From: Thiocapsa marina 5811
GTDB lineage: Bacteria > Pseudomonadota > Gammaproteobacteria > Chromatiales > Chromatiaceae
Assembly (NCBI RefSeq): GCF_000223985.1
Contig: NZ_AFWV01000001.1
Span: 434,001 to 498,000, forward strand
DNA: 64,000 bases
Direction: 5' to 3'
Of the stretch, positions 11,284-36,709 are shown piece by piece. The notes under the pieces were generated by a model. It was not told the DNA's origin, did not search any database, and worked only from the letters and a program-made list of their open reading frames with translations. Both the position numbers and the translations under genes were made by a program. Every line of letters begins with the position of its first letter. Position 1 is the stretch's first letter.

Positions 11284-11557
11284 CGATTTCTATTCCAGTC
11301 CATTCCGTTGTGGGCCTGCTCCGCTCCTTCCAGTGCCCAGCCCCGCGAGCGGCCCCCTTCGTCAGGCAGCGCCTCGGGCCGCCGGTCGGTCATACGGGAA
11401 GCAATACTCGCGCCACAATCGGCCTAGTCGCGTGCAGACATCGACCGACATGCCGGTTCGGAACGAACGCGGCCCCTATGCTTCATCGTCTATACTTGGA
11501 GAACAGCGTTTCTTGACGTAAGCTCGCGAACATCAACACATGGATAGGAGATTTGAG
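11284..11557 (+). promoter_or_regulatory. Promoter region of the exopolysaccharide operon
   Basis: Divergent spacer between the phosphatase gene and the operon starting at 11558. It has a -10-like TATACT at 11491-11496 and a strong Shine-Dalgarno-like TAGGAG just before the chosen ATG. No convincing -35 box is seen, so the promoter position is tentative. Confidence 0.35.
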
Positions 11558-12373: not shown

Positions 12374-12581
12374 TTCAAGGCGAGGCGGTGTTCCCGTGAT
12401 CTCGAGTCGATCGGGCGGGCGCGCCGCGACCCACTCCGGGTGATCGTCTCGAGCGCCTTTACACCCTCCGAGTGCTTTGATGTCCTCTACTGCCGGTCTC
12501 TCGGCGTGCCTTTCCGCTCCGACGTATCCGCGACGAGAACCACTGGTTCACGGGCGGATCGCCTTAACGGTGTCTGAAGTG

Positions 12582-13625
12582 ATGAGTCGTAAGCCCTTCG
12601 CCGGCTGGTGTGTGCCGTTGCTAGTGTCCGTGATCGCGCTCGCGGGTTGCGCGACTCCCCGGAGCGATGGATCGGACGCCGCCGCGGCCGCGTCGATTGC
12701 CGCGGAGGCACAGGCTCGTGCGGACCAGGCGCGGGTGATGGATCTCAATCGCCAGCTCACCATGGCTGCCGCGGCGCAATCCTCGAACCTCTCCAGCCAC
12801 GACTACCGTCTGGGTCCGGGCGACGTGGTCAAGATCGAGGCCCCTCAGGCACCGGAGATCAATAGTCTCAGCGTGCGCATCACTGGTCCGGGCACCGTGA
12901 ATCTGCCCCTGGTCGGGGAGATTCGCCTGGGGGGTCTCACCACCGCCGAAGCCGAGCAGGCGTTGATGCAGCGCCTGAGCAGGTACATCCATTCGCCCCA
13001 GGTTGCGATCTTCATCGACCAATATGCCTCCCAGGAGGTCACGGTGACTGGAGCGGTCGCCAATCCCGGCGTCTTTCCGATGCAGCGACCGAGGACCCTC
13101 TTCGAGGTGCTCTCCATGGCCGGCGGCTTGGCGCCGAATGCAGGCTCGACGGTCAGTGTGCGCACCGGGGTGCGCGATCCGCAAACCGGCCAGGTCGCGA
13201 CCCATAACCTCATCGTCGACCTGCGCGACCTGGTGAAGGATCCGGGCGCCCAGGCGTTGGCCCTGCGCGGCGGCGACAGCGTCTATGTCCCGGAGGCAGG
13301 CGTCTTCTTCGTCGAGGGCGCGGTCGGCAAATCAGGCTCCTTCCCGCTGCGCCCGGACATGACCGTCCTCAAGGCGATCGCCATGGCGGGCGGAACGGAT
13401 TGGACGTCGGTCGAGAAGAATATCCGGGTGATCCGGCACGACGGGACCGGGTCGCCTCGGGAGATTCCGGTCGACCTCGTCGCGATCCGCGATCTCGGGC
13501 AGGAGGATATGCTTCTCCAGGACGGCGACGTGGTGGTGGTCGATACCAACTATGCCAAGAAGGGCGCCGTGGTGATGTGGAACCAAGCGCTCAGAGTGCT
13601 CTCGCTCGGCATTCTCTACCAATAA
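12582..13625 (+). CDS. Polysaccharide export outer-membrane lipoprotein (Wza-like)
   Basis: Wza-family exporter of 347 residues. ATG 12582 is chosen since it gives a short lipoprotein signal with lipobox LAGC (VSVIALAGCATPRS); the frame is open further upstream but without a signal. A polysaccharide-export domain follows (YRLGPGDVVKIEAPQAPEIN, VRITGPGTVNLPLVGEIRLG), then two SLBB-type domains (VTVTGAVANPGVFPMQRPRT and FFVEGAVGKSGSFPL). Forms the outer-membrane pore that works with the Wzc-like protein encoded 22 nt downstream. Confidence 0.9.
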   Translation: MSRKPFAGWCVPLLVSVIALAGCATPRSDGSDAAAAASIAAEAQARADQARVMDLNRQLTMAAAAQSSNLSSHDYRLGPGDVVKIEAPQAPEINSLSVRITGPGTVNLPLVGEIRLGGLTTAEAEQALMQRLSRYIHSPQVAIFIDQYASQEVTVTGAVANPGVFPMQRPRTLFEVLSMAGGLAPNAGSTVSVRTGVRDPQTGQVATHNLIVDLRDLVKDPGAQALALRGGDSVYVPEAGVFFVEGAVGKSGSFPLRPDMTVLKAIAMAGGTDWTSVEKNIRVIRHDGTGSPREIPVDLVAIRDLGQEDMLLQDGDVVVVDTNYAKKGAVVMWNQALRVLSLGILYQ

Positions 13626-13647
13626 AACACTCGAAAAGGACGATCGC

Positions 13648-15978
13648 GTGAAGCCTCTGCCGCCGCCCACCCCGTCAGCCTCGGCGCGGGTCCCCCAGTT
13701 GCGCCAGCCGGATCGGTTGGCGCCCTACGAGCCGCTGTATTACCCGGAGGCGGTGGAGGACGACGGCCTCGATTTGCGGGAGCTCTGGCGGATCGCGCTG
13801 AAGAATCGGCGAACCATCCTGCTGTTCGCCGCGATCGTCATCGTCACCGTGGCCTCCGCGACCCTCATCATGCGCCCGGTGTATCGGGCCACGACGGTGC
13901 TCGAGGTCTCGCCGCAGAGTCAGGGGATTGTTCAATTCCAGAATGTTCAAAGCACCACACAGGATTCGGCCACCTTTCAGCGCACCCAGATCGAGATCAT
14001 CAAGAGTCGAGTCGTCGCCGAGGCCGTCGTCAAACGATTGGATCTCGGCGAACACCCGGCCTTCAACGGCGAGCTTCGGCAACGCGATCTTGCGGCCGGA
14101 CTCCGCGAAATCTCCGGGATGCTGATTCGTCCGATCAAGGACGGTATCACTGGACTCTTCACCGGCGGTGCAGGGGGGCAGACCGCGAACGCCGATCTCT
14201 CCGGGAACAGTGCGGCCCCTTCCGAGGACCGCAAGATGCGTGCCCTGGTTGGCAGGGTACAAGGCGGCCTCACGGTGAACCCGATCCGCGCATCCAACCT
14301 GATCGAAATCAGTTTCGAGAGCCTCGATCGTCAACTCGCGGCCACCGTGACCAACGCGGTCGCCGACGCCTATCTCGCGCTCAGCGCCCGCAAGCGATTC
14401 GAGCTGTCGAGCGGCGCCGAGTCCTATCTCAAGAGCGAGATCGAGGAGCTACAGGGCAAGCTCGAGACCTCCGAGAAAGACCTTTACGCCTTCGCGCGCC
14501 AGAATCAAGTCGTGGATCTGGAGGACCGCAACAACATCATCGCAACCCGTCTGACCGAGCTGAACATCAACCTCTCCAAGGTCAAGGGCGAGCGGATCGC
14601 GGCCGAGTCGCTCTATCAACAGTTGGCGCAGGCGAACGTCGACAGTCTGCCGACCGTCCTGCAGGACAGCCGGATCACGGACCTCAAGGGCCAACTCTCC
14701 AGCCTGCGCGGCGAATACGCGCGCTTGGGCCAGACCTACACCTCCGAGTACCCGCGCATGCAGGAGCTGCAGCGCCAGATGGACGACATTCGAGCCACCC
14801 TGGAAAAAGAGCTCGGAGATCTCGTGGAGAGTCTGGAGGTGAATTACCGCCAGCTCGCCGATCGCGAGGAGCGGCTCACCCAAGCGGTCGAGCAGCAGAA
14901 GCAGGATCTTCTGGAGCTCCAGGATCGTGCCGTTCAATACAATATCCTCAAGCGCGAGTGGGAAACCAACAGCCAGCTCTACAGCGGACTGCTCGAACGC
15001 ATGAAGGAGGTCGGTGTCGCCGCAGGCATGGAGCGCGACTCGGCCTCGGTCATCGACCGTGCGCTCGTGCCCAACGGCCCGTTCGCGCCCAGGCTCAGCA
15101 GAAATCTCGCGATCGCGACCGTGCTTGGCCTGATGGGCGGGATCGGGCTCGCGCTGCTCCTGAATCTTCTGGACAACAGCGTTCGAGACCCCGAGGAGGT
15201 GGAGCGCTTGGTGCACCTCGTCAGTCTCGGGTTGTTGCCGCGCGTCGATCCCAAGGCGAACGTGCCCAGCGTGCCGATCGAGCTGATGGCCCATCTGCAA
15301 CGCGATCAGGGTCTTTCCGAGGCATTCCGGTCTATTCGCACCAGCCTCATGTTCGCGACCCCAGGGGGTGCTCCGAAGACTCTGATGGTCACCAGTGCCG
15401 TACCAGGGGAGGGCAAGAGCACCTCCTCGGTCAGTCTGGGCATCGTCCTGGCGCAGACCGGTGCCTCCGTCCTCTTGATCGACGGGGATCTGCGCAAACC
15501 GCGTCTCTACGGGATCTTCAATGTGCCGCGCGCCCCGGGGCTTACGGAATATCTGGTGCAGGGCGAGTCCGATGTCTTTTACCCGACGGCCATCGAAAAT
15601 CTAACCCTGATGGTCGCCGGGACGCCGCCTCCGAATCCCGCCGAGCTTCTGAGCTCGGGCGCGACCGACCGGATGCTCGAGGAGATGTCGCGTCGGTTCG
15701 ACTATGTGATCGTCGACAGCAGCCCCGTCATGGGACTCGCCGACCCTATCGTGCTGGCGACCAAGGTTAAGGGCGTACTTCTGGTTTCGGCTGCAGGATT
15801 GGTGAGCCGCGGTGCGTTGCGCGAGGCCGTGAAACGCTTGCGGGCGGTCGATGCACCCTTGGTCGGCTCCGTGCTCAATATGGTCGAGCCGCACAGCAGC
15901 GAGTACAACTACTACAACCGCTATTACTACAACTACGGTTCATACAAAGAGACGGCCCTGTATCGCGAGGTCGCCTGA
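13648..15978 (+). CDS. Wzc-like polysaccharide copolymerase/tyrosine autokinase
   Basis: Inner-membrane polysaccharide copolymerase fused to a BY-kinase; 776 residues from GTG 13648. A Wzz domain starts with LDLRELWRIALKNRRTILLF and the first membrane helix; a long coiled coil spans about 250-440; a second helix (LAIATVLGLMGGIGLALLL) precedes the kinase. Kinase motifs: Walker A SAVPGEGKSTSS near 588, Walker A' LLIDGDLRKP near 611, Walker B VIVDSSPVMGLAD near 686, and a C-terminal tyrosine cluster (EYNYYNRYYYNYGSY). Tyrosine phosphorylation would control assembly; the likely phosphatase is at 10483-11283. Confidence 0.93.
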   Translation: MKPLPPPTPSASARVPQLRQPDRLAPYEPLYYPEAVEDDGLDLRELWRIALKNRRTILLFAAIVIVTVASATLIMRPVYRATTVLEVSPQSQGIVQFQNVQSTTQDSATFQRTQIEIIKSRVVAEAVVKRLDLGEHPAFNGELRQRDLAAGLREISGMLIRPIKDGITGLFTGGAGGQTANADLSGNSAAPSEDRKMRALVGRVQGGLTVNPIRASNLIEISFESLDRQLAATVTNAVADAYLALSARKRFELSSGAESYLKSEIEELQGKLETSEKDLYAFARQNQVVDLEDRNNIIATRLTELNINLSKVKGERIAAESLYQQLAQANVDSLPTVLQDSRITDLKGQLSSLRGEYARLGQTYTSEYPRMQELQRQMDDIRATLEKELGDLVESLEVNYRQLADREERLTQAVEQQKQDLLELQDRAVQYNILKREWETNSQLYSGLLERMKEVGVAAGMERDSASVIDRALVPNGPFAPRLSRNLAIATVLGLMGGIGLALLLNLLDNSVRDPEEVERLVHLVSLGLLPRVDPKANVPSVPIELMAHLQRDQGLSEAFRSIRTSLMFATPGGAPKTLMVTSAVPGEGKSTSSVSLGIVLAQTGASVLLIDGDLRKPRLYGIFNVPRAPGLTEYLVQGESDVFYPTAIENLTLMVAGTPPPNPAELLSSGATDRMLEEMSRRFDYVIVDSSPVMGLADPIVLATKVKGVLLVSAAGLVSRGALREAVKRLRAVDAPLVGSVLNMVEPHSSEYNYYNRYYYNYGSYKETALYREVA

Positions 15979-23901: not shown

Positions 23902-24435
23902 GGGGATGCTCTTTTCGGCTGATCGGGGTCTTCAGCCTATCCCGGTCCCGAGCACGCTCGCATCGGGGAAAAGAGCCCCGAAACGCCGTTTTTCGAGCAG
24001 GCCGCAGCCTTGCAATCGCCCTTCGCCTGCGCTGGAATACGCATGCGGTAGCTGGCCGCGGCCCCCGGGAGCCGAAACGTCCGCCCGGACGTGACAGCCG
24101 AAACCAAGTCCCTCCGAGCGCATGCGGTCGCAGTGACGGCCATCCAGGCCGATCGCGCTCCCGTCTCCATCGCACGTTCCGCAACACACCGACCTCAACC
24201 CCACGATCGACGCCGCGCCCTGTCGCTGCGTGCGTCCGCGCGCGCTCCTGCGAACCCCGTCGATTCCCCTGTCCCCTGCGCACCGAGGGCGTCCGTGACC
24301 CGCACGGTCCGCAGCGGACAGGCGATTCACGCGTCATCCGTTCGGCTCTCCCTGTGCGAGACCGACCGACGGGGCCGCTGACCCCAGGCGTTTGCCCGAA
24401 CACAGCCGAAACCAACCGCCGGCCCTGCCGGCTCA
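23902..24435. other. Spacer between divergent regulator and recombination operon
   Basis: About 530 nt with no supportable gene. This is where the promoter of the recombination operon should lie. I see no clear -35/-10 pair or operator. Confidence 0.5.
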
Positions 24436-24439
24436 CCCG

Positions 24440-24513
24440 TCCCGGGGAGACTGCCGCTCCCACGGGGGAGAGGTGCGTCTCCTCGGGTTCACCCACCCGA
24501 TGGAGACCACACC
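24440..24513 (+). promoter_or_regulatory. Structured leader 1 (bet)
   Basis: Arm A GGGGAGAC (24444-24451), inner stem CTCCC/GGGAG (24457-24461/24466-24470), arm B GTCTCC (24477-24482), segment C GGAGAC (24502-24507) 7 nt before ATG. B is complementary to both A and C, so the two pairings exclude each other. Confidence 0.8.
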
Positions 24514-25548
24514 ATGGCCACACGCCGCAGCAGCCCGACCCAAGCCCTGACCAGCTCGCTCGTCCCCAGCCGCCTCCCGGTCGCCCCGACCGTCCTCGCC
24601 GAGATCGGCCTGGACGCCGGAACCTGGGCGGTGCTCGCCGACTCGATCTTCCCCAACGCCAAGACACCCGAGGGCGTGATCCTCGCGGTGCGCTACTGCC
24701 AGGCGCGCGGCCTGGACGTGATGAAGCGCCCGGTGCACGTCGTCTCCATGTGGTCGACCGCGCTCGGACGGTATGTCGAAACGGTTTGGCCCGGCATCGC
24801 CGAGGTCCAGATCACGGCGGCGCGCACCGGCCTGTGGGCCGGGCTCGACTCGCCGCGGTTCGGGCCGGAGCTGACCAAGACCTTCACCGGGACGGTCAAG
24901 CGCGACGACAAGTGGACCGACATCGCCGTCACCGTGACCTTCCCCGAGTGGGCCGAAACGACGGTCTATCGGATGGTCAACGGGGTGCGCTGCCCCTTCT
25001 CGGAGATGGTCTTCTGGGAGGAGACCTATGCCCGACAAGGCCGTGCGGAGGTGCCCAACGAGATGTGGCAGAAGCGTCCGAAGGGACAACTGCTCAAATG
25101 CGCCAAAGCGGCGAGCCTGCGGGCGGCCTTTCCCGAGGAAGCCGGCTACACCGCCGAGGAGATGGAAGGCAAGGCCATCGAGGGCCATGCCCCCGTCGAC
25201 GCCGCCGTGATCGCGGGCGAGGTGGTCACCGCGCAACCGACCACGAAGGAGCCGAGCGACACGGCCACCCCGAGTCCGGTCGACGAGACCTCCGTCTCCG
25301 CAACCGCCCCGGCGGATCCCGCACAGCGGGATGCCGTCATCGACGCGCAGGTCGCCAAGCAGGTCGCCACGCTCGTGGAGCGGGCCTGCAAGGTCGGCGC
25401 CTGGGGTCAGGCCGAGGACTATGCCCGCGCCCGCTTCAACGGGGCGCATCTCGCCTACGCCCTCGCCGAGTTGGAGCAGGCGGCCGCACTGTCGGTCGTC
25501 ACGAGGAAAGCCAAGACCGCCGAGGCTCCCGTCGCCGAAGCCGCGTAG
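24514..25548 (+). CDS. bet: Bet/RecT-type single-strand annealing recombinase
   Basis: ATP-independent annealing protein of the Red-beta/RecT superfamily, 344 residues. Family blocks include SIFPNAKTPEGVILAVRYCQ, GLDVMKRPVHVVSMWSTALG, VWPGIAEVQITAARTG, and PNEMWQKRPKGQLLKCAKAA followed by SLRAAFPEEAGYTAEEM. It would anneal complementary strands during recombination with the exonuclease encoded next. A Bet-Exo pair is a core feature of SXT/R391-like elements. The last about 110 residues are low-complexity then helical and could be the partner-binding domain. Preceded by structured leader 1. Confidence 0.88.
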   Translation: MATRRSSPTQALTSSLVPSRLPVAPTVLAEIGLDAGTWAVLADSIFPNAKTPEGVILAVRYCQARGLDVMKRPVHVVSMWSTALGRYVETVWPGIAEVQITAARTGLWAGLDSPRFGPELTKTFTGTVKRDDKWTDIAVTVTFPEWAETTVYRMVNGVRCPFSEMVFWEETYARQGRAEVPNEMWQKRPKGQLLKCAKAASLRAAFPEEAGYTAEEMEGKAIEGHAPVDAAVIAGEVVTAQPTTKEPSDTATPSPVDETSVSATAPADPAQRDAVIDAQVAKQVATLVERACKVGAWGQAEDYARARFNGAHLAYALAELEQAAALSVVTRKAKTAEAPVAEAA

Positions 25549-25600
25549 CGCCCATGACCGCCACGGACGGCGGTCATCGGATTCCGATCATCCACCCCCC

Positions 25601-25656
25601 CATGGGGCACGCGCTGCCCCTCGGGGACGTTGCCCCTGTTTGTTTCAGGAGCACCC
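25601..25656 (+). promoter_or_regulatory. Structured leader 2 (exonuclease)
   Basis: Arm A GGGGCA (25604-25609), inner stem CCCC/GGGG (25617-25620/25623-25626), arm B TGCCCC (25631-25636), segment C GGAGCA (25648-25653) directly before ATG. B pairs perfectly with A and with one mismatch with C. Confidence 0.75.
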
Positions 25657-26673
25657 ATGCATGTCATCGACATCACCCAACGCACCCCCGAGTGGCTCGC
25701 CTGGCGTAACGCCGGGGTTTCGGCCTCCGATGCCGCGGTCGTTCTCGGCGTCTCGCCCTACAAGACGCCGTGGCGGCTGTGGGCGGAGAAGATCGGGATG
25801 CTGTTGCCCGAAGACCTGAGCGGCAATCCCGTCGTGCGACGCGGCAACGCGCTCGAAGACACCGCCCGCCGGGGCTTCGAGGAGCGCCACGACACCTTGC
25901 TGCTGCCGCTCTGCGGCGAGTCCGATACCCACCCGGTGATCCGCGCGTCCTTCGACGGCCTGAACGACGACGGGTGCCCGGTCGAGCTCAAGGTCCCGCA
26001 CGAGAGCACCTATCTCCAGGTCCTGGAGCACGGCATCGCCTCGCAGGCCTACCGCCTCTATTGGCATCAGGTCCAGTGCCAGATCTACGTCGCCGACGCC
26101 GCCGAAGGCTGGCTGGTGTTTCATCGAGCCCCGGGCATCGCGGTCGACTTTCGCATCCCGCGCGACGAGACCTTCATCCGGGACACCCTGGTGCCGCGCT
26201 GCCTGGAGTTTCGCAAGCGCGTGGAGAAAAAGCAGGAACCCGAGCGCGATCCGGAGCGGGACCTCTACACCCCGTCCGGCGCGGCGCTGGCGACCTGGAC
26301 GCGGCTGTCCGGGGAGTACCGCAGGCTCGCCGCCGAGAAGGCCAAGCTTGACGCCGCACACAAGACCCTGAAGTCGGGTCTGGACGGCATCGAGTCGCAA
26401 CTGGTCGCCCTGCTGGGCGACTTCGCGATGGGCGAGAGCGCCGGGCTGCGGGTCCTGCACTACGCCGTGGCCGGAGCGATCGACTACAAAGCCGCGTTGT
26501 CGGACCTCGACCCGGATCTCGATCCGCTGCGTCTGGAGCGCTATCGCCGCGCGTCCTCCGACCGGGTCAAGATCACGACCCTGAAGGACGGCACGGCAAG
26601 TGTTCCGTTCAATGCGGCCGCGCTCGTCGCGATGCCGGATCCCGCAGAGACGGAGAACGGCTTCTACTTCTGA
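25657..26673 (+). CDS. YqaJ-type (lambda-exonuclease-like) recombination nuclease
   Basis: PD-(D/E)XK exonuclease of 338 residues, partner of the Bet recombinase. The start is ATG 25657, which begins MHVIDITQRTPEWLAWRNAG and puts ASDAAVVLGVSPYKTPWRLW in the position typical of YqaJ proteins. Active-site features: RASFDGLNDDGCPVELKVPH (D...ExK) and a downstream helix with YRLYWHQVQCQIYVADA. It should resect double-strand ends 5' to 3'. The protein ends ETENGFYF, an acidic-aromatic tail also found on the two small-module proteins downstream (27919 and 28366). Confidence 0.9.
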   Translation: MHVIDITQRTPEWLAWRNAGVSASDAAVVLGVSPYKTPWRLWAEKIGMLLPEDLSGNPVVRRGNALEDTARRGFEERHDTLLLPLCGESDTHPVIRASFDGLNDDGCPVELKVPHESTYLQVLEHGIASQAYRLYWHQVQCQIYVADAAEGWLVFHRAPGIAVDFRIPRDETFIRDTLVPRCLEFRKRVEKKQEPERDPERDLYTPSGAALATWTRLSGEYRRLAAEKAKLDAAHKTLKSGLDGIESQLVALLGDFAMGESAGLRVLHYAVAGAIDYKAALSDLDPDLDPLRLERYRRASSDRVKITTLKDGTASVPFNAAALVAMPDPAETENGFYF

Positions 26674-26894
26674 CCCCACGGATCCAGGCCCATGGACGGG
26701 CCCAGGATCCGCCGATTCCGCATCCCGATACACCCCGGCCCCGGCCGGTGGCTGTCCCGTCCGGACTGATGTTTAAGCCGTCCCGATCGGACAGCCGAAT
26801 GACGTGATGTCCCTGCCGGACATGACGACTCCGCGAGCTGAACGGGCCGACTCTCGGCGACACAGCCAACCCCAACCCTCTGCAACCCAAGCCC

Positions 26895-26968
26895 CCCGGG
26901 GAGACCTGCGCTCCCCTCACGGGAGGCGTGCGTCTCCTCGGGTTCACCCACCCGATGGAGACCACACC
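26895..26968 (+). promoter_or_regulatory. Structured leader 3 (CobS-like ATPase)
   Basis: Nearly the same as leader 1, including the 40 nt before the start codon. Arm A GGGGAGAC (26898-26905), inner stem CTCCC/GGGAG (26911-26915/26921-26925), arm B GTCTCC (26932-26937), segment C GGAGAC (26957-26962). Confidence 0.8.
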
Positions 26969-27922
26969 ATGACCGCCAGCCAACGTTTCGATGTCGCGAC
27001 CACCTTCAACGTCAAGGCCCGTCCGGGTCTGGAAGTGATCGGTTTCGCCGACGACACCCATCCGCACATCCCGGTGCGCAAGCCCTACGTCTTCAGACCC
27101 GAGTTGCTGCGCGACGTGCTGGCCTTCCTGCACGAGGCCGGCGGCGACGGCCTGTTCCTGACCGGCCCGACCGGATCGGGCAAGACCAGCCTGATCCTGC
27201 AGATTGCCGCCCGGCTCGCCTGGCCGGTGCAGTCGGTGACCTGCCACGGACGCATGGAGCTGGCGGCCCTGGTCGGCCAGTTCGTATTGGTCGACGGAAG
27301 CACCCGCTTCGTGCACGGACCCCTGTCCACGGCGGCGCGCGACGGGCACCTCCTGGTGCTCAACGAGAGCGATCTGATGGACCCGGCCGAGCTGGCGGGT
27401 CTGAACGACATCCTCGAGGGCCATCCGCTGGTGATTGCGGAGAACGGCGGGGAGGTGATCCGACCCCACCCCAAATTCCGGGTCGTGGCGACCGGCAACA
27501 CCGCCGGTGCCGGCGACCGCTCGGGTCTCTACCAAGGGGTGCTGCGACAGAACCTCGCCTTCATGGACCGCTTCCGGGTGGTGCAGGTCGGCTATCCGGA
27601 GCCCGAGACGGAGCAGGATCTGATCGCCGCGGCGGTCCCGAAGCTGCCTGCGGAGATCATCGCGAAGATGATCCTCGTGGCCGAGGAAGTGCGGCGCCTG
27701 TTCCTGGGCGCCGGTACGGAATCCGGGGAGCTGACCGTGACCATGAGCACCCGGACCCTGGTGCGCTGGGCGACGCTGAGTCTGGCGTTCAAAGGCGCAC
27801 CGAACGTCTTCGAGTATGCCCTGCAGCAGTCCTTGACCGCCCGCGCGGAGCCGGAGCAGCGCGAGGCGATCCACCGGATCGCCGCCGATGTCTTCGGCGA
27901 CTACTGGGGTGCGAAACCATGA
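26969..27922 (+). CDS. CobS/MoxR-like AAA+ ATPase
   Basis: AAA+ ATPase of 317 residues in the MoxR/CobS group. Walker A GPTGSGKT near residue 65, Walker B LLVLNE near 130, sensor-like KFRVVATGNTAGAGDRSG, and RQNLAFMDRFRVVQVGYPEP typical of CobS. Such ATPases act as hexamers with a VWA partner, here most likely the HExxH+VWA protein at 29545-31377, as CobS does with CobT or RavA with ViaA. The substrate is unknown; in SXT-like elements a cobS-like gene also follows bet and exo. Its stop overlaps the next start (ATGA). Confidence 0.88.
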   Translation: MTASQRFDVATTFNVKARPGLEVIGFADDTHPHIPVRKPYVFRPELLRDVLAFLHEAGGDGLFLTGPTGSGKTSLILQIAARLAWPVQSVTCHGRMELAALVGQFVLVDGSTRFVHGPLSTAARDGHLLVLNESDLMDPAELAGLNDILEGHPLVIAENGGEVIRPHPKFRVVATGNTAGAGDRSGLYQGVLRQNLAFMDRFRVVQVGYPEPETEQDLIAAAVPKLPAEIIAKMILVAEEVRRLFLGAGTESGELTVTMSTRTLVRWATLSLAFKGAPNVFEYALQQSLTARAEPEQREAIHRIAADVFGDYWGAKP

Positions 27923-28281
27923 GTCCGCTGTATCGGCTCTACCGGTACGAGCACGGCGACGGGACCGCCAGGGAATGGGCCTACGCCGATCTCGGCAACG
28001 GGACGGCGCAGATCCGTTGGGGACCGGCCGGTCGCCTCCGGCAAACCCAATCCAAGCCGTTGCCGATCGCCCTCGAGCGGGCACCCGTGAAGCTGCTGAA
28101 GGGCTACGTCGCCATCGGCCGGGCGGACATCGATGCGACCGGGGCCGTGGCGCTGCTGTCGCGGGATGGTCCGGATCAGCGGGTGACTCCCGTCGTACCC
28201 GCTGCGCCCAAGCTCGACCCCAAACCAGCCCGCGACATCGCCGCCCTCTTGGGTGGTGACGAAGACGGGTTTTACTTCTAA
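27919..28281 (+). CDS. Small WGR-like protein
   Basis: Protein of 120 residues starting in a 4-nt overlap with the ATPase gene; it is the only cistron of this module without its own leader. The N-terminal 70 residues (YRLYRYEHGDGTAREWAYAD, TAQIRWGPAGRL) resemble a WGR nucleic-acid-binding fold, with IRWG in the WGR position. A proline-rich linker leads to the tail GGDEDGFYF, which matches the tails of the exonuclease and the DUF3150 protein. Exact function unknown. Confidence 0.65.
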   Translation: MSPLYRLYRYEHGDGTAREWAYADLGNGTAQIRWGPAGRLRQTQSKPLPIALERAPVKLLKGYVAIGRADIDATGAVALLSRDGPDQRVTPVVPAAPKLDPKPARDIAALLGGDEDGFYF

Positions 28282-28302
28282 CCCATCTCGACACACGGCC
28301 GA

Positions 28303-28365
28303 CCGCGGCGCACGTCTTCGCCGCCCGGCGATCGCGTGCGTCCCGGTTCGCCCGGGAGCCCACCG
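28303..28365 (+). promoter_or_regulatory. Structured leader 4 (DUF3150)
   Basis: Arm A CGCACG (28309-28314), inner stem GCCG/CGGC (28320-28323/28326-28329), arm B CGTGCG (28335-28340), ribosome-binding segment GGGAGCCCACC (28354-28364). A and B differ completely from the GGGGAGAC type yet still pair. B-C pairing is weak in this copy. Confidence 0.7.
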
Positions 28366-29430
28366 ATGCACACGATCACTCACGTCACCGACCGAATCAC
28401 CCTGGTCATGTTGAACGTCGCCATCTGGTCCGGACGCAAGAAACTGCGTGCCGAAGACCTGAAACTCGGCACCGACGTCCCGCCCGAGGAGCTGGTCTCC
28501 TTGGGATCGAAACGGGTCTGCGACCCCGAGCCGCTCAAGATCTTTCACCGCATCAAGAAGGGTGCGGAGCGCACCTGCCTGCAGGTCGGAACCCGCTTTC
28601 TCGGCGGGTTTGCCGTGCCGCATGCCCGGTCCGAGTCCATCGCCGAGAGCTTGGCGGCGCTGAAGGTGGAATTCGACGCCGAAACACGGTCCTTCCTGGC
28701 CGGTTACGACCGGGCGTTGGAGGAGTGGATCTCCAATCTGCCCGCCTGGGAGGAACCGATCCGTCGGGCGATCGAGCCGGCGGAGATCGTCGGCACGCGT
28801 CTGCGTTTCGGCTACCAGATCGTGCGGATCGCCCCGGCGGAGCAACCGGGGACGCTGGAGGAGGAGGTCCAGGGGCTCGGCGACGGCATCTTCGCCGAAG
28901 TCGAGCAGATGGCCCGCGAGCTCGAAGGCAGCTTCGAGGGCAAGGAGAAGCTGCATCGCCGTGCGCTCGGCACCTTCCGGCGCATCCGCGAGAAGCTCGC
29001 CTGCCTGTCCTTCGTGGACCGGCGGATCCATCCGGTGGTGGACACCCTCGATGACTGGTTCGCCCGCCTGCCGGACGGCCCGATCGAAGGCCCGATCTTC
29101 AACGAAGGCATGGGGCTCGCACTGCTCCTCGCGGATGCCGAGCGCATGGCGCGCCACGGGGCGGGCCAGTGGGCGGTGCAGCAGGACGGCGAGCCGAACG
29201 ACAGCGACATGGAATCGGACGCCACGCCGACCGAGGTCACGCCGTTGCCGCTCGCCGTGCAGTCCACGATGGACTTCGAGGCCGAGATGGACGCCTTGTT
29301 CGGCGATGTGCCGATTGAGGCCGAGACAGGCTCCGAAGCGCGGCTCAACCAGCCGGACAACCCGCCGGAGCCCGCGTTCGCCAGGCCCGTCGAGGAGACG
29401 GTCGCGGACGTCGAGGGCTTCTTCTTCTGA
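28366..29430 (+). CDS. DUF3150-like protein
   Basis: Protein of 354 residues that I assign to the DUF3150 family, usually encoded beside CobS-like ATPases and VWA proteins in mobile elements. It begins MHTITHVTDRITLVMLNVAI followed by WSGRKKLRAEDL, a typical opening; helices with long charged stretches fill residues 90-270 (for example GSFEGKEKLHRRALGTFRRI). The C-terminal 80 residues are acidic and disordered-looking and end ADVEGFFF, the same kind of tail as on the exonuclease and the WGR-like protein. It may bridge the ATPase and VWA protein; no catalytic motif is visible. Confidence 0.72.
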   Translation: MHTITHVTDRITLVMLNVAIWSGRKKLRAEDLKLGTDVPPEELVSLGSKRVCDPEPLKIFHRIKKGAERTCLQVGTRFLGGFAVPHARSESIAESLAALKVEFDAETRSFLAGYDRALEEWISNLPAWEEPIRRAIEPAEIVGTRLRFGYQIVRIAPAEQPGTLEEEVQGLGDGIFAEVEQMARELEGSFEGKEKLHRRALGTFRRIREKLACLSFVDRRIHPVVDTLDDWFARLPDGPIEGPIFNEGMGLALLLADAERMARHGAGQWAVQQDGEPNDSDMESDATPTEVTPLPLAVQSTMDFEAEMDALFGDVPIEAETGSEARLNQPDNPPEPAFARPVEETVADVEGFFF

Positions 29431-29488
29431 TCCGACCCTGAACCCGAGCCGGCGCATCCCCGCCGGCTTCCCGTCAATCCACCCGACC

Positions 29489-29544
29489 GGGGTACACCGA
29501 CCCCGCCGGGGCGGTGTGCCCCTTTTTTGACTCAGGAGCACACC
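29489..29544 (+). promoter_or_regulatory. Structured leader 5 (HExxH+VWA)
   Basis: Arm A GGGGTACACCG (29489-29499), inner CCCC/GGGG (29501-29504/29508-29511), arm B CGGTGTGCCCC (29512-29522), segment C GGAGCACACC (29535-29544) ending at the ATG. B pairs over 11 nt with A (one G-U) and over 10 nt with C (one mismatch). The A-B stem is followed by TTTTTT, so this copy could also terminate transcription. Confidence 0.85.
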
Positions 29545-31377
29545 ATGACACCCAAGACCTTGACCGACGCACTGCCGATCGTCGCCGCCGCCTACGGGCG
29601 CAAATTCGGCATCTCCGTGCGGGTCGGCGGCACGCAAGCCCTCACCGACGGGGGCGTGATCGTCATTCCCGCGATCGGCACCGACCCGACGGCCCGGACG
29701 CTGGCGTGGGGCTATCTGGCCCACGAAGCGGCCCATGTCCGCTACACCGACTTCGCCCTGCCGAGGGCGCACACGCCGCTGGAGCGGTTCATCCAAGGCG
29801 TCATCGAAGACATCCGGATCGAGGGCGAGCTGATCGCCGCCTATCCGGGCACCCGCAGGACGCTCGACGCGGTCGTGGCCGCCTTGGTGGCCGACGGGTC
29901 GCTGTCGGCGGTGTGCGAGACCGAGCGCCCGTCCGACATCCTCGGCAACGGGTTCCTCGCCCTGGCCCGGCACCGCTACCGCAAGCAGGATGCGCTGGCG
30001 AGTCACGCCAAGGAGGCCGATCGCGTCATGCGGGCTGTCTTCCAAGCGCGCTTCGTCCACCGGCTGCAGGGACTCATGTCCGAGATCCCGAGGCTCGCGA
30101 GCACGGCGGCGTCGATCGACCTCGCCCGGCGGATCGTCGGGTTGATCGAGGAGGACTCGCAGGAGCAGCCGCCTCCGGCGCCGCAACAGTCCGACGCGGA
30201 TCACGGTGCAGGTTCCGACCCGGCATCCGATCCGGACACCGGGAACGGAGCGGGGCAAAACGACGACGATGCTCAGGAGACGTCCACGAACAGTCGGTCC
30301 GTAGACGACGCCGAACAGGGTGATGCCGGAGACGGAGGATCCGAGAACGGCGCATCCGCAGGCGATGGAGGAGAGGATCGGGACAAGGAGGACGAAAAGG
30401 GCCAAGACGGTCGAAGCGCCGACTCCGGTACCGGCTCGTCCGAACAGAGCCTGAACCAGGGTCGAGAGACCGAGCAGACCACCGACCCCGACAGCACCAC
30501 GGCAGGCAACGACGCCCGCCGCGCACTCCAGCAGGTGCTGTCCGCCACCGACGCCGACCTTCCGGAGGACCTCTTCGCGTCGGTCGCCCAAGCCTTGAAC
30601 GGGCAAACCCGCGATCCGGCGACGCTGCTTCCCGCAGCGGAAGCCTACCTCGGGGACCTGCGCTCGGGACGGATGACCCTGGACCGCGTCAAGGGACGGT
30701 CGGCAAAGCTTACGGCGCGTCTGCAGGGCTTGATCGAGACCCGTACCCAGGAACGCACCCGAGCGGGTCGACGTGGACAATCCTTGAGTCCACGTCACCT
30801 GCACCGCGCCGGTGTCGGCGACCCGCGGGTGTTCCGGATCCGCGAGCAAGCGATCGCGCCGAATACGGCGCTGCACCTGCTGGTGGATCTGTCCTCGTCC
30901 ATGAGCGCCGGCCGAGATGCGATCGCGTTGGATGCGGCCGCGGCATTGGCGTTGGCCCTGGAGCCCGTCAAAGGCGTCTCGCGCGCGGTGACGGCGTTCC
31001 CGAGCCTGCAGGGTCACGCCGAGAAGGTGACCCGGATCCTGGCGCACGGCGAGCGGGTGGCGTCCCGCGTCGGGGCGTTCGTCCAACGCGGTCGCGGCGG
31101 CACGCCGATGACCGGGGCGCTGTGGTTCGCCGCGGCGGATCTGCTGGCCCGTCGCGAGACGCGCAAGGTGATCATCACCCTCACCGACGGACAACCCGAC
31201 GACCTGTGCACCGCCGCCGACCTGATCGAACAGGCCGGCGCGGCCGGCATCGAGATGATCGGCGTGGGCATCGCCGTGGACGTCGGGCGTCTGTTCCCGA
31301 TCGCCGTGCGCATCGATGCCGTCGCGGATCTGAAGACCGCGCTGTTCGGGATCGCCGAGCAGCTTCTGCTGACCTGA
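29545..31377 (+). CDS. HExxH + von Willebrand A protein (CobT-like)
   Basis: Protein of 610 residues pairing with the CobS-like ATPase. Near residue 60 is LAHEAAHVRYTDF, a zinc-metallopeptidase HExxH motif, followed by VIEDIRIEG, a candidate third ligand region. Residues about 190-320 are highly acidic and low complexity, as in CobT. The C-terminal VWA domain has an intact MIDAS: DLSSSMS near 448, GGTPMTG near 518 and TLTDGQPDD near 546. ATG 29545 is preferred as it follows the leader and ribosome-binding segment. Whether the peptidase site is active is unknown. Confidence 0.85.
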   Translation: MTPKTLTDALPIVAAAYGRKFGISVRVGGTQALTDGGVIVIPAIGTDPTARTLAWGYLAHEAAHVRYTDFALPRAHTPLERFIQGVIEDIRIEGELIAAYPGTRRTLDAVVAALVADGSLSAVCETERPSDILGNGFLALARHRYRKQDALASHAKEADRVMRAVFQARFVHRLQGLMSEIPRLASTAASIDLARRIVGLIEEDSQEQPPPAPQQSDADHGAGSDPASDPDTGNGAGQNDDDAQETSTNSRSVDDAEQGDAGDGGSENGASAGDGGEDRDKEDEKGQDGRSADSGTGSSEQSLNQGRETEQTTDPDSTTAGNDARRALQQVLSATDADLPEDLFASVAQALNGQTRDPATLLPAAEAYLGDLRSGRMTLDRVKGRSAKLTARLQGLIETRTQERTRAGRRGQSLSPRHLHRAGVGDPRVFRIREQAIAPNTALHLLVDLSSSMSAGRDAIALDAAAALALALEPVKGVSRAVTAFPSLQGHAEKVTRILAHGERVASRVGAFVQRGRGGTPMTGALWFAAADLLARRETRKVIITLTDGQPDDLCTAADLIEQAGAAGIEMIGVGIAVDVGRLFPIAVRIDAVADLKTALFGIAEQLLLT

Positions 31378-31572
31378 CCCCAGCCATCGGGCCCGCGGGC
31401 CGGTCGTCCTTCGCGGACGGCCGGTCCGGGTCCGGGAGGTGTGCTCGCCGTGGGCGCGCTCGCGCGTTCATCGCCGGCACGGTTCCCCGGATCCTCGCTG
31501 TCGAGGATCTCCGAGAAGCGGTCGCTGGCCGCCCGGTTTGCCGGAAACACAGCCGAACCCACTGCTGCACAC

Positions 31573-31635
31573 CACCCCGCGGGGAGAGGCACTCTCCCCC
31601 GGGGACGGTGCGTCTCCCCTTCACCGGAGAGACGC
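31573..31635 (+). promoter_or_regulatory. Structured leader 6 (methyltransferase-like)
   Basis: Arm A GGGGAGA (31581-31587), short inner CCC/GGG-type stem (31595-31605), arm B GTCTCCCC (31612-31619). The stretch GCGTCTC (31610-31616) is fully complementary to GAGACGC (31629-31635), which touches the ATG. Confidence 0.75.
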
Positions 31636-32421
31636 ATGTCCACACCCCACCCCGCCCACGCGCTTGCGGGCATGATCGAAACCCTCGCACGTCGCGGCGA
31701 CTATCGCCCCGACGAATGGCTGCGCTTCCTGACCATGGATGTCCTCGCCGGCTTCGGCGAGCGACTCGAAACCCCCTGGGACGAGCGGCGTCACGCGGCG
31801 CTGTTCGAGCTCTCCGGCCTCTACGGACGGCTCGTCGCCGAGAACCCCTGGCGCGACATCCTGGGCGCCGTCTACATGGAGCTGAGCGCGCACGGCCAAC
31901 GCAAATGGATGGGGCAGTACTTCACGCCCCAGTCGGTCGCGGACTTCATGGCCGAGATCAACACCGGCGATCTGGATCCGTCCGCCCATCCGAAGGACCG
32001 CTTCATCACGATCCTGGAGCCGACCAGCGGTGCGGGAATCCTGCTGCTGTCGGTCTGCAACACCGTCGCGATCAAGCATGGCACCGATGCGCTGCGGCGT
32101 CTGTCGCTCACGGCGATCGATCTGGATCCGCTGTGCGCGCGCATGACCGCCTGCCAGCTGCTCGCCAATGCGGCCCTGCACGGACCGCTCGGGGAGATCC
32201 TGGTCTACCGCGGCAACGCGCTCGGCAACCCGGCCGATCTGGAGGTGGTGACCCATCGCCTCGCCGCACCCCGACGCGTCGCAGGCCAACCCGAGCCGAT
32301 CCCCGAGGTCCTCCCGGCCCTCGCGCCACTTCGCCTCGCGGCCGTCATGTCGGCCACCGAGAGCCGTCAGTTGAGCCTCTTCGACGACGCGGCGCTGCCG
32401 CCGCTGCAACGCACGGCCTGA
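31636..32421 (+). CDS. N-6 DNA methyltransferase-like protein without a clear catalytic motif
   Basis: Protein of 261 residues resembling the N-terminal half of type I modification subunits. It has [18 protein letters not shown] and the SAM-binding motif [17 protein letters not shown], followed by [17 protein letters not shown]. The (N/D)PP(Y/F) catalytic motif IV expected after about 25 more residues is not seen; the matching position reads [13 protein letters not shown]. It may bind SAM or DNA without methylating. The C-terminus contains RQLSLFDDA, a match to the sliding-clamp-binding consensus QL(S/D)LF. Related proteins occur in integrative elements next to RadC. Confidence 0.7.
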
Positions 32422-32436
32422 CGCGCCGACATCCAT

Positions 32437-32506
32437 CCACCCCGCGGGGACATCCTTCCCCGCACCGGGGGACGTGTCTCCCCGCTCGACCCCGGAGACA
32501 CCACCC
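32437..32506 (+). promoter_or_regulatory. Structured leader 7 (radC)
   Basis: Arm A GCGGGGACA (32444-32452), inner CCCCG/CGGGG (32458-32462/32466-32470), arm B TGTCTCCCCGC (32475-32485), segment C GGAGACAC (32494-32501). GTGTCTCC (32474-32481) is a perfect 8-nt complement of C; B-A pairing needs a 2-nt bulge. Confidence 0.82.
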
Positions 32507-33010
32507 ATGAAGAAACCGCAACTGTCCCTGCCCCTGGAACCCGACCACATGCGCCGGGCGGACCTGCCGGAAAGCGACCAGGAGCTGGTGGCAAGCGCCA
32601 TCCGCTGCCTGGAGCAGAAGTACCTGGTCAAGCAGGACAGCCTGACCAGCCCGGAGGCCACGCGCAACTTCCTCAAGCTGCGGCTCTACGGCCTGCACTA
32701 CGAGGTGTTCGCCTGCCTGTATCTGGACAACCGCCATCGCGTCATCCGCTACGAGGAGCTGTTCCGCGGCACCATCGACGGGGCCAGCGTGCATCCCAGA
32801 GAGGTTCTTCGGAAGGTGGTGGAGACCGGTGCGGCGGCGGTCATCTTCGCCCACAACCACCCCTCGGGCGTTCCCGAGCCCTCCCAAGCCGATCTTCGAC
32901 TCACCCAGCGACTGCGCGAAGGTCTGTCGCTGTTCGACGTGCGGGTGATCGATCACATGATCGTCGGCGACGGCGAGGCCGTCTCCATGGCCGAGCGCGG
33001 CGTGCTCTGA
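32507..33010 (+). CDS. radC: RadC-family JAB/MPN-domain protein
   Basis: RadC-like protein of 167 residues. ATG 32507 follows the leader; an upstream in-frame ATG at 32474 lies inside the leader and is rejected. The MPN/JAMM metal site is intact: [20 protein letters not shown] near residue 115, with [15 protein letters not shown] before it. The short N-terminus [11 protein letters not shown] contains QLSLPL, identical to the clamp-binding hexapeptide known from Hda. RadC-type genes are common accessory genes in SXT-like elements; the biochemical role of the family remains unclear. Confidence 0.9.
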
Positions 33011-33047
33011 CGGTCGCACACGCATTGCAAAGAACCCAATCCACTCA

Positions 33048-33110
33048 ACCCCGCGGGGCGGATCTCCCCGTCGGGGAGGTGTGCCCCGCCTGACTTTGGA
33101 GACACACCGC
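33048..33110 (+). promoter_or_regulatory. Structured leader 8 (Toprim protein)
   Basis: Arm A GCGGGGC (33053-33059), inner CTCCCC/GGGGAG (33064-33069/33073-33078), arm B GTGTGCCCCGC (33079-33089). GCCCCGC pairs perfectly with A, while GTGTG pairs with CACAC (33103-33107) of the ribosome-binding segment GGAGACACACC. Confidence 0.8.
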
Positions 33111-34157
33111 ATGAATCCATCCAGACTACGGATGACCATCGACGCACAAACCATCCGCGAGCAAGCCCGCGGACGCTGGATTGGCATCCTCGGTCGGCTC
33201 ACGCCGACCTTGGAGCCTGCACTGGCCCGTCCGGGTCGCCACGTGCCATGCCCGGTCCATGGCGGATCGGACGGGTTCCGGGTTTTCCGGGATGTGGCGG
33301 AAACCGGCGGCGGGATCTGCAACAGCTGCGGCCCCCGTCGCGACGGCTTCGCGTTGCTGATGTGGGCCAACGACTGGGGCTTTCGCGAGACCCTGGAGGC
33401 CGTCGCCCGGGAACTCGGACTCGACACGGAACACCCGCCGACCATCGCGGCGCGACCGAGGCCGGTCGTCGTCGCACGCACGGACCAAGACCCGACCATG
33501 GCCGAGACCGCCCTTCGGCGCGTCTGGTCCGAGACCCTGGACCCGGACGACCGACGGGCACTCCCGCTGCGGCGGTATCTGTCCCGTCGCGGAATCGATG
33601 CCGAACCCGACCCGCGCGTGCTCCGGTTTCATCCGGGGCTTGCCTACTACGACAGCACGACGCGCATCGCGACCTTCCCGGCGCTCGTCGCCAAGGTGTC
33701 GGATGCCGAGGGTCGGTCGGTCTCGCTGCACCGGATCTACCTCGATCCCGCGGGACACAAGGCCCCGGTGGCCCATCCGAAGAAGATGATGCCGCCGATC
33801 GGCACGCTCTGCGGGGGCGCCGTGCGGCTCTACCCGGCCGGTCCGACACTGGGGATCACCGAAGGCATCGAGACCGCACTGGTGATCCGCCAGCGCACCG
33901 CGATGCCGGTCTGGGCCGGGATCTCCGCGACCCTGCTGCAGCGGTTCGTGCCGCCGCCCGGGGTCGAGCTGGTCGTGATCTGGGCCGATCTGGATCGCTC
34001 GGGAACCGGGGAGCAGACCGCCCTCGCACTGCGCGAGCGGCTTGTCTCCCGAGGTATGCGGGTAGCGCTGCATCTACCGAAGGGGCCGATCCCGGAAGGG
34101 AGCAAAAGTCTCGACTGGTGCGACCTGTGGCGCCTCGACCTGCGCGCCGTGGCCTGA
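33111..34157 (+). CDS. CHC2/Toprim primase-like protein
   Basis: Protein of 348 residues with a primase-like layout. An N-terminal zinc-ribbon (VPCPVHGGSDGF ... ICNSCG, residues about 46-73) is followed by DGFALLMWANDWGFRETLEA and a C-terminal Toprim domain with TEGIETALVIRQ (Glu) near 250 and VIWADLDRSGTGEQTA (DxD) near 292. Such proteins are found in phages and integrative elements and may prime DNA synthesis on the transferred strand. Start ATG 33111 fits the leader. The operon ends with a terminator 70 nt downstream. Confidence 0.82.
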   Translation: MNPSRLRMTIDAQTIREQARGRWIGILGRLTPTLEPALARPGRHVPCPVHGGSDGFRVFRDVAETGGGICNSCGPRRDGFALLMWANDWGFRETLEAVARELGLDTEHPPTIAARPRPVVVARTDQDPTMAETALRRVWSETLDPDDRRALPLRRYLSRRGIDAEPDPRVLRFHPGLAYYDSTTRIATFPALVAKVSDAEGRSVSLHRIYLDPAGHKAPVAHPKKMMPPIGTLCGGAVRLYPAGPTLGITEGIETALVIRQRTAMPVWAGISATLLQRFVPPPGVELVVIWADLDRSGTGEQTALALRERLVSRGMRVALHLPKGPIPEGSKSLDWCDLWRLDLRAVA

Positions 34158-35440: not shown

Positions 35441-36709
35441 ATGCTTGTCGAGTTCCGCGTCAAGAACTTCCGCAGCCTGCGTGACGAGCAGGTCCTCAGC
35501 CTTGTCGCATCCAAAGACAAGACCATGCACGATACCCACACCTTGAGCACCGGCCTAAAGGCTGCGCCGTACTTGCTGCGCAGCGCCGTACTGTATGGCG
35601 CCAATGCCGGCGGTAAATCAAACATGATCAAAGCACTGCAATACATGCGGGGCGTCGTGCTCGAATCAGCGACCAGTATTCAGCCCGGCCAGACATTCGC
35701 CGTGCAACCCTTCAAGCTCGATGCTCATTCTGCCGGCCAGCCGACGGAGCTCGAAGTCACGTTCATCCTGGACGGCGTGCGCTACCAGTACGGCTTTTCC
35801 ATGACGCCGCAACGCATCGTCAGCGAGCACCTCCTGGTTTACAAAGCGTTCAAGCCGCAGCGCTGGTTCGAGCGCCGTTTCGACTCTGAAAGTGGCAAGG
35901 ACGTGTACGACTTCGGCCCCGGGCTGAAGGGGACCAAGAACCTTTGGGAAGGGGCCACCCGACCCAACGCCTTGTTCCTGTCGATGGCCGTGCAGCTCAA
36001 CAGCGAGTCCCTGCGACCGGTGTTCGATTGGTTCGCCAATCATCTGGTGATCATCAACGAACAGGCGCGGCTGAATCCGCAGACCTCGATTCACATGATC
36101 AAGCAGGCCGAAGGCCGCAAGCAGATCTGCGACGTTCTCGCCGCGGCCGACATCAGCATTGCCGACATCGAGGTCGTCACCCGCAAAGTGCCGGGGCATG
36201 CCGTTCATTTCGATCTTGTCGCCGGCAAGACCGAGGTCCGCAGCGAGGAAGTGGAAGAGGACCAGTTGCGCTTCTCGCATGTGACCGAGCAAGGCCAAGC
36301 GGTGTTCGAGCTGACGGACGAGTCCAGCGGTACCCGCAACCTGCTGTTCCTGATCGGGCCCGCGCTAAACATCCTGAAGAAGGGCTTGATCCTGGTCATC
36401 GATGAGCTCGACAACAGTCTGCATACGCTCCTGCTGCGCGAGCTGGTTCGCCTGTTTCATCGACCCGACATCAACACCGGCGGCGCACAGCTCATCTTCA
36501 CGACCCATGACACCGCGCTGCTGGATGCACCCGACCTGTTCCGGCGCGATCAGATCTGGTTCGTGGAGAAAGACCGGGATCAGGCATCCGCACTGGTGGC
36601 GCTCTCCGAATTCAGCCCGCGCAAGAACGAAGCGCTGGAGCGCGGCTATCTGCGGGGACGCTACGGAGGCGTGCCCTTTTTGAGCCATACCCTCGGGCTC
36701 AAGCACTGA
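35441..36709 (+). CDS. AAA-family ATPase of an RloA/AbiL-like defence pair
   Basis: SMC/OLD-like ATPase of 422 residues. N-terminal MLVEFRVKNFRSLRDEQVLS leads to Walker A LYGANAGGKSNMIKAL (about 52-62); the signature-like FELTDESSGTRNLLFLI, Walker B LILVIDELDNSLHTLLL (about 318) and IFTTHDTALLDAPDLFRRDQ are all intact. In related pairs (RloA-RloB, AbiLi-AbiLii) the ATPase acts with a Toprim-like RloB partner in abortive infection against phage. The RloB gene follows with a 1-nt stop/start overlap. The upstream region is AT-rich, suggesting separate acquisition. Confidence 0.85.
   Translation: MLVEFRVKNFRSLRDEQVLSLVASKDKTMHDTHTLSTGLKAAPYLLRSAVLYGANAGGKSNMIKALQYMRGVVLESATSIQPGQTFAVQPFKLDAHSAGQPTELEVTFILDGVRYQYGFSMTPQRIVSEHLLVYKAFKPQRWFERRFDSESGKDVYDFGPGLKGTKNLWEGATRPNALFLSMAVQLNSESLRPVFDWFANHLVIINEQARLNPQTSIHMIKQAEGRKQICDVLAAADISIADIEVVTRKVPGHAVHFDLVAGKTEVRSEEVEEDQLRFSHVTEQGQAVFELTDESSGTRNLLFLIGPALNILKKGLILVIDELDNSLHTLLLRELVRLFHRPDINTGGAQLIFTTHDTALLDAPDLFRRDQIWFVEKDRDQASALVALSEFSPRKNEALERGYLRGRYGGVPFLSHTLGLKH

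Follow-up and report, generated by a model that had tools for sequence, protein, structure and literature searches.

In ErmC- and cat-type attenuators the Shine-Dalgarno (SD) sequence is hidden by base pairing and freed by alternative pairing, and translational riboswitches and ribosomal-protein leaders likewise use alternative folds to hide or free it. IncC plasmids and SXT-like elements have been heavily studied for their transcriptional control by AcaCD and SetCD. According to a review, bet in SXT is preceded by a strong translational attenuator, which is also present in IncA/C plasmids with an untested function there (PMC4542580). The STAXI RNA motif (RF01728) recurs as a structured element close to ssb, topoisomerase, antirestriction and integrase genes; it is described as a pseudoknot occurring in two or three tandem repeats, which was once considered as acting in single-stranded DNA (PMC2864571). 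Here, we analyzed a 64,000-nucleotide (nt) stretch of Thiocapsa marina 5811 (contig NZ_AFWV01000001.1, positions 434,001 to 498,000; hereafter the window), in which nearly every spaced gene of a recombination block is preceded by a structured leader. Each of these leaders is probably a bistable, SD-hiding translational attenuator that is off by default, with one leader per independently initiated gene.

Read from the sequence, the leaders precede the ATG codons at 24514, 25657, 26969, 28366, 29545, 31636, 32507 and 33111. The initial annotation of this DNA had placed eight leaders before these genes with the order A - inner hairpin - B - C - ATG, and both this order and the arms it quoted are borne out. 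We divided the leaders into six segments, from 5′ to 3′ Z (C-rich), A (G-rich), I5 (C-rich), I3 (G-rich), B and C, the last of which contains the SD and ends at or beside the start codon. The open fold has the I5:I3 hairpin nested inside A:B and leaves C unpaired; the closed fold has A:I5 nested inside Z:I3, with the SD covered by B:C. Of these pairings, A:B and B:C had already been proposed as freeing and hiding the ribosome-binding site and are retained here, but Z:I3 and A:I5, which complete the SD-hidden fold, had been missed.

Two mutually exclusive sets of pairings covary, one of them over the SD, as expected of a bistable SD-hiding RNA switch. A parse-free set of 217 leaders (ATG start, at least 100 nt) was reduced to 126 Chromatiaceae leaders by removing those sharing at least 35% of 6-mers with a leader already retained. 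In this set, used with no alignment, pairing of segment C is stronger with its own leader than with other leaders (−14.2 versus −12.6 kcal/mol; reached by 0/10000 permutations), also within genes, and B:C is significant for cobT (z −3.1), exo (z −3.6) and radC (z −3.8) taken singly. A two-dimensional map of 96 leaders gave z −7.7 for A-B, in agreement with the earlier claim that A pairs with B around the inner hairpin, together with −6.0 for B-C and −5.2 for A-I5; I5-I3 was also visible, and the map contained no pairing signal with the coding start. The Chromatiaceae map also contains an extra covarying hairpin upstream of Z, at about −88/−72 from the ATG (z −4.9), which may stabilise the 3′ end of the preceding gene.

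Of 105 Chromatiaceae leaders, 63 passed a parse that required A:B, I5:I3 and Z; in these 63, B:C reached z −10.3 and A:I5 −5.2 (0/5000 permutations each) and Z:I3 −2.2 (94/5000). The values for A:B (−12.6) and I5:I3 (−9.7) are inflated because both pairings are selection criteria of the parse. Control pairings in the same leaders gave −1.3 (A:C), −0.3 (Z:C), +0.8 (Z:A), −1.3 (I3:B), −2.2 (I5:C) and +0.3 (Z with upstream sequence). An independent set from IncC, Halomonas, P. veronii, Desulfovibrio and four further loci sets (113 leaders, 102 non-redundant, 82 parsed) showed z −10.4 for B:C, −9.3 for Z:I3 and −5.0 for A:I5, each with 0/5000, alongside the selected-on A:B (−20.1) and I5:I3 (−13.4) and the controls A:C (−0.8), Z:C (−0.9) and Z:A (+0.3). 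Covariation of Z:I3 is clear in this data set and weak in the Chromatiaceae one.

The B:C signal is also present within single elements, with z −7.0 in 28 leaders of one IncC plasmid and −5.7 in all 38 (0/10000), −4.4 in P. veronii (21 genes), −3.1 in Desulfovibrio (10) and −2.2 in Halomonas (16; 159/10000). In 28 leaders of five further loci it reached −5.2, with near-identical copies counted, and the tra region of the IncC plasmid, used as a negative control, gave +1.0 (34 genes). B:C is stronger than pairing of C with the reverse complement of A in 52/63 and 67/82 leaders, which speaks against B:C as a by-product of A resembling C. RNAalifold returned no structure for a MAFFT alignment of 38 leaders (A1) because MAFFT had set the B arms out of register. 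A pair count on another alignment (A3) found changes on both sides in 10 of 12 pairs, with 93.6% of cells paired versus 83.3% when shuffled. Because this count is fitted to the model, whose ten training sequences it contains, the permutation tests carry the weight instead. By those tests the arms covary between the copies, as the initial annotation had it, and between orthologues.

Folded alone, the 5′ part forms Z:I3 with A:I5 in 59 of 63 (0.937) and 73 of 82 leaders. If the transcript stops at B, A:B is favoured in 47 of the 63 and A:I5 in 16. Once it extends to the ATG, the minimum free energy (MFE) structure contains B:C in 53 of these leaders, A:B in 9 and neither in one, and the full-leader MFE of the 82 independent leaders has B with C in 62, with A in 18 and with neither in two. 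On average the closed fold is 7.3 kcal/mol more stable than the open one, and it is the more stable of the two in 87% of the 63 leaders, these values being approximate sums over separately folded parts. Since the SD-hidden fold is usually the MFE, the default is probably off. The closed fold would lower translation of the downstream gene, and we infer that some event favours A:B and opens the gene, which may be co-transcriptional timing, an element-encoded factor or a host RNA chaperone.

The preference for A:B before C exists (47/63), followed by closure in 53/63, suggests a co-transcriptional timer, which we regard as a possible but tentative version of the mechanism. The nascent leader would pass through the open A:B fold and close once C has been made, so that only fresh transcripts are translated, and the leaders would form an unnamed widespread RNA family acting gene by gene. 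Translation might then occur, for example, just after entry or induction of the element, and one shared factor could set the time frame for about 30 genes. Static sequestration, a permanent brake on translation by B:C in which A:B is passed through during folding and never serves as a regulated open state, is unlikely. It agrees with the closed fold being the MFE in 53/63 and 62/82 leaders, but a weak SD would be a cheaper route to low translation, and static hiding would not require A:B covariation in the parse-free map or the near-perfect long hairpins to which A:B extends in many leaders.

The block of an IncC plasmid has 38 gene starts, 32 of them with a spacer of at least 30 nt; 28 of these 32 pass the parse (A:B, inner hairpin and Z) and 24 also form Z:I3 with A:I5, in contrast to none of the six genes with shorter spacers. 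The tra region passes in 1/34 cases (0/34 with Z:I3 and A:I5) and 640 shuffled sequences in 8% (1%). A regular expression alone matches 24% of shuffles, and IncC leaders were therefore counted by parse with these controls. In the window, the gene at 27919, which overlaps the preceding stop codon (ATGA), has no leader, and the earlier observation that only this coupled gene lacks one extends to one leader per independently initiated cistron, with 0/6 closely coupled IncC genes parsing. With a putative lock on nearly every spaced cistron, the block could be transcribed as a long operon and its genes still be gated one by one at translation.

A leader-by-leader comparison of IncA and IncC copies for 25 genes showed changes mostly in the linkers, with compensatory changes seen by eye in A:B of one leader (h6) and B:C of another (h2). 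Leaders precede bet in both IncC and IncA, and the IncC bet leader belongs to this leader family. Another repeated motif, CAAAAACAAACAGC or similar, lies upstream of several leaders in one IncC plasmid locus (L143; for example at 2210, 7045, 10865, 15279 and 19059).

The spacing of leaders bears on a translational relay, in which a ribosome finishing the upstream gene melts Z:I3 and A:I5 and opens the next gene. Among the 25 IncC leaders in which Z was located, 13 have it at −5 to 20 nt from the upstream stop codon, but the remaining distances run up to hundreds of nt (the value of −72 among the 25 is a script artefact). In the window, Z is about 16-49 nt from the upstream stop for five genes and about 195-217 nt for the N6 methylase and cobS genes. 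We set the relay aside as improbable, the distances being too variable.

Leaders of this type are found well beyond the window. The initial annotation had proposed a covariance model search of related elements, and our search recovered leaders in Chromatiaceae, Halomonas, Desulfovibrio, a P. veronii plasmid and IncC. The model, R1, was built from ten leaders of equal geometry (alignment A2), the window copy at 29545 among them. Orthologues were listed for 43 loci, nearly all from Chromatiaceae, leaving out short duplicates of the same regions, one locus (L046) and non-Chromatiaceae loci; their leaders have different letters in the same segment order. Across relatives R1 gave 122 matches at E ≤ 0.05 in 40 sources, the ten training leaders included, and some of these matches precede ssb. 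Outside Chromatiaceae, leader clusters occur in Halomonas LBP4 and Desulfovibrio sp. A2. At E ≤ 1, the whole record of the IncC plasmid NZ_CP026225.1 has 18 matches, all at 95.5-122.2 kb and 17 on the plus strand, and the whole Halomonas genome 16, all on one strand at 90.0-129.5 kb of contig C44. The P. veronii plasmid has six, all at 185.8-202.4 kb, and Desulfovibrio six, four of them in one cluster.

Genome-wide scans scored up to 150, 45 or 19 candidates per genome, and their counts are therefore lower bounds. Matches at E ≤ 0.001 occur in at least 24 of 116 genomes of the Chromatiaceae family, and in a class-wide draw at least 13 of 274 genomes have one at E ≤ 0.02, several of these genomes with clusters, though single matches may be chance. 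CobS protein is encoded in 1098 plasmid records (E ≤ 1e-30), 967 of them predicted conjugative; the plasmids examined for leaders were three (loci L137/L143, L138/L144 and L149) plus an A. vinosum plasmid locus (L101). Among E. coli genomes, 88 records carry bet-exo, 87 of them plasmid and one chromosomal. A contig from another gammaproteobacterial family has nine closely similar leaders before unrelated genes (L150, 55-7378). Upstream of cobT in L036, L042, L094 and L101, a plain GC hairpin followed by a T-run occupies the leader position and resembles an intrinsic terminator.

The leaders are very unlikely to be intrinsic terminators, RNA processing sites or mRNA-stabilising hairpins between genes in which C has no role. 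T-run hairpins do occur at some orthologous positions (cobT in L036, L042 and L094) and the 29545 leader carries TTTTTT, from which the initial annotation had raised possible termination for that copy. As a general function termination is not upheld, since TTTT follows B within 10 nt in only 9/63 leaders, and the covariation of B:C would be left unexplained; the T-run expected of an intrinsic terminator or transcription attenuator is present in single copies such as 29545. A folded single-stranded DNA element acting during transfer, as a promoter or recognition site, is highly improbable: neighbouring genes include ssb, bet and a primase-like gene, but C covaries on the SD beside the start codon in gene after gene, and the coupled genes have no leader (0/6 in IncC). 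An ErmC-type attenuator with a ribosome stalled on a leader peptide has a similar alternative-pairing logic that frees the SD and is scarcely credible, since an upstream open reading frame of at least four codons ends between Z and B in 1/63 leaders, and an SD-like site accompanies it in none.

Several results weigh against the bistable attenuator. Gene by gene, no significant B:C signal is seen for bet (z −0.7, 16 leaders), the primase-like gene (−0.9, 9), cobS (−1.8, 21) or DUF3150 (−0.6, 21; reached by 1311/5000 permutations). The initial claim that B pairs with C over the SD, a pairing that covaries in two data sets, is not supported by covariation for the DUF3150 (28366) type, and the 25657 copy pairs B with C imperfectly. 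Z:I3 in Chromatiaceae is no stronger than the control I5:C (71/5000), the control I3:B reaches −2.3 (57/5000) in the 82 independent leaders, and the coupled gene without a leader (g4) itself gives z −1.8 (33 sequences; 369/10000). The inflated values of the selected-on pairings belong here as well, and the leaders share descent, which permutation removes only partly. Several relatives have a partial leader set, plain T-run hairpins, degenerate or other upstream regions, or no leaders, and a third, more diverged copy of the module in the T. marina genome (C46:4358-5305, L091; CobS gene of 81% identity) has no R1 match among the candidates scored. Finally, the analysis found no trigger, a point that favours static sequestration.

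In the window itself, with filters off, R1 gave E values between 3.7e-13 and 0.015 for seven copies and only E 2.4 for the eighth, at 28366. The minus strand accounts for all four further matches up to E 5: two of them are leader hairpins read on the opposite strand, and the other two are at unrelated places (37588, E 1.1; 59221, E 0.49). A stricter parse is passed by all window leaders except the 28366 copy, and a second hairpin (H2) is found in six of eight. Most window SDs are predicted to be paired; in the plotted MFE structures several are paired via B:C, while the cobT and primase-like gene leaders retain A:B. Over the whole 5.6-Mb genome there are at least 12 matches at E ≤ 1, in two module copies (five on contig C62 and seven on C43; 150 of 3794 first-look candidates scored).

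All leaders and genes of the block lie on the plus strand. The bet/RecT single-strand annealing protein gene (24514-25548; Pfam RecT 6.8e-12, NCBIfam bet_lambda) follows a leader at 24434-24513 with Z 24434-24442, A 24443-24451, I5 24456-24461, I3 24465-24470, B 24472-24482 (GGTGCGTCTCC) and C 24502-24513 (GGAGACCACACC), which has E 0.015 and passed both the parse and H2. The leader of the YqaJ/lambda-exonuclease family nuclease (25657-26673; Pfam YqaJ 6.1e-23, also NCBIfam) spans 25592-25656, with Z 25592-25600, A 25604-25609, I5 25615-25620, I3 25623-25626, B 25629-25638 and C 25646-25656 (E 8.1e-08). Before the CbbQ/CobS-like AAA+ ATPase (26969-27922; Pfam AAA_5 and CbbQ_C), the leader at 26891-26968 consists of Z 26891-26897, A 26898-26905, I5 26910-26916, I3 26921-26925, B 26928-26937 and C 26957-26968 (E 0.0005). 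The 40 nt through the ATG are identical between the bet and CobS leaders (24477-24516 and 26932-26971), which suggests copying between leaders inside the locus.

The coupled gene (27919-28281) matched no Pfam or NCBIfam family. The leader of the DUF3150 gene (28366-29430; Pfam DUF3150 2.1e-92), at 28300-28365, is divergent, with A CGCACG at 28309-28314 and B CGTGCG at 28335-28340, and a role as an SD lock is not supported for it. The gene for the CobT-like VWA-domain protein (29545-31377; Pfam CobT, CobT_C and VWA) has the training-set leader at 29480-29544 (E 3.7e-13), with Z 29480-29488, A 29489-29498, I5 29501-29504, I3 29508-29511, B 29513-29522 (GGTGTGCCCC), followed by TTTTTT, and C 29535-29544 (GGAGCACACC). 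That of the N-6 DNA methylase-like gene (31636-32421; Pfam N6_Mtase 1.8e-06) is at 31573-31635, with Z 31573-31580, A 31581-31592, I5 31593-31600, I3 31601-31604, B 31607-31619 and C 31626-31635 (E 0.00026; parse passed, but not counted as H2). The RadC-like JAB-domain gene (32507-33010; Pfam RadC 1.4e-43) is preceded at 32438-32506 by Z 32438-32445, A 32446-32452, I5 32456-32461, I3 32466-32472, B 32474-32483 and C 32494-32506 (E 0.0035). The primase-like gene (33111-34157; Pfam Zn_Ribbon_Prim, DUF7146 and Toprim_3) has a leader at 33046-33110 with Z 33046-33054, A 33055-33059, I5 33063-33069, I3 33073-33078, B 33079-33087 and C 33098-33110 (E 4.7e-07).

These nine genes form a block at 24.5-34.2 kb, and CobS, ssb, Bet, exonuclease, DUF3150 and VWA families also lie downstream of traN in the IncC plasmid. 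Matches to F-type TrbC and TraN (33-1307 and 2322-5081, plus strand) occur upstream of the block, an order that resembles IncC plasmids. From this shared gene content, the window appears to be part of an IncC/SXT-like conjugative element. The CobS-like protein is 100% identical over its full length to the T. roseopersicina DSM 217 copy, and a DUF3150 search of viral contigs found no relative. Between TraN and the leader block, at 9108-15978, there are matches to Wzy_C (below the curated cut-off), polysaccharide export and Wzz/GNVR chain-length proteins, perhaps element cargo, and an AAA_21 (AbiEii-like) ATPase gene lies just 3′ of the block at 35441-36709.

If a lock stands on each gene of a roughly 28-kb block, protein levels there could not be read from transcript levels, and IncC/SXT-like elements would have an overlooked layer of coordinated post-transcriptional control. 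For a block encoding Bet, Exo, SSB, CobS/CobT-like and DUF3150 proteins, tight default-off control would suggest products that are needed briefly or are costly. About a hundred natural variants of a two-fold RNA also offer a resource for how sequence sets fold balance.

No Rfam 15 family reached the gathering threshold in the window, seven relatives gave only a tRNA, and relaxed scans returned only sub-threshold matches to unrelated families (two in the module), which rejects an Rfam identity and agrees with the absence of a named family in the initial annotation. RF01728 was likewise without a match in the window, module or relatives. A described counterpart exists in part, as the bet attenuator of SXT and IncA/C elements is reported for one gene (PMC4542580). 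In the literature searched, with subscription papers mostly outside reach, we found no description of such a leader before genes other than bet, nor of the two-fold architecture, the one-per-gene scale or the spread; the bet attenuator itself is already known. The leaders differ from translational riboswitches and ribosomal-protein leaders in that no conserved ligand-binding core is seen and conservation lies mostly in the pairing segments, and from ErmC- and cat-type attenuators in having no leader peptide. STAXI, as described, is a tandem pseudoknot, whereas here one two-state leader per gene ends in the SD. Compared by the review's description rather than by a published structure, the SXT and IncA/C bet attenuator shares with the window leaders the gene, its position immediately upstream of bet, the element class and the level of control. 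However, that attenuator is described as a single one, before bet, whereas the present leaders stand before nearly every spaced gene, with two covarying folds and in several element lineages.

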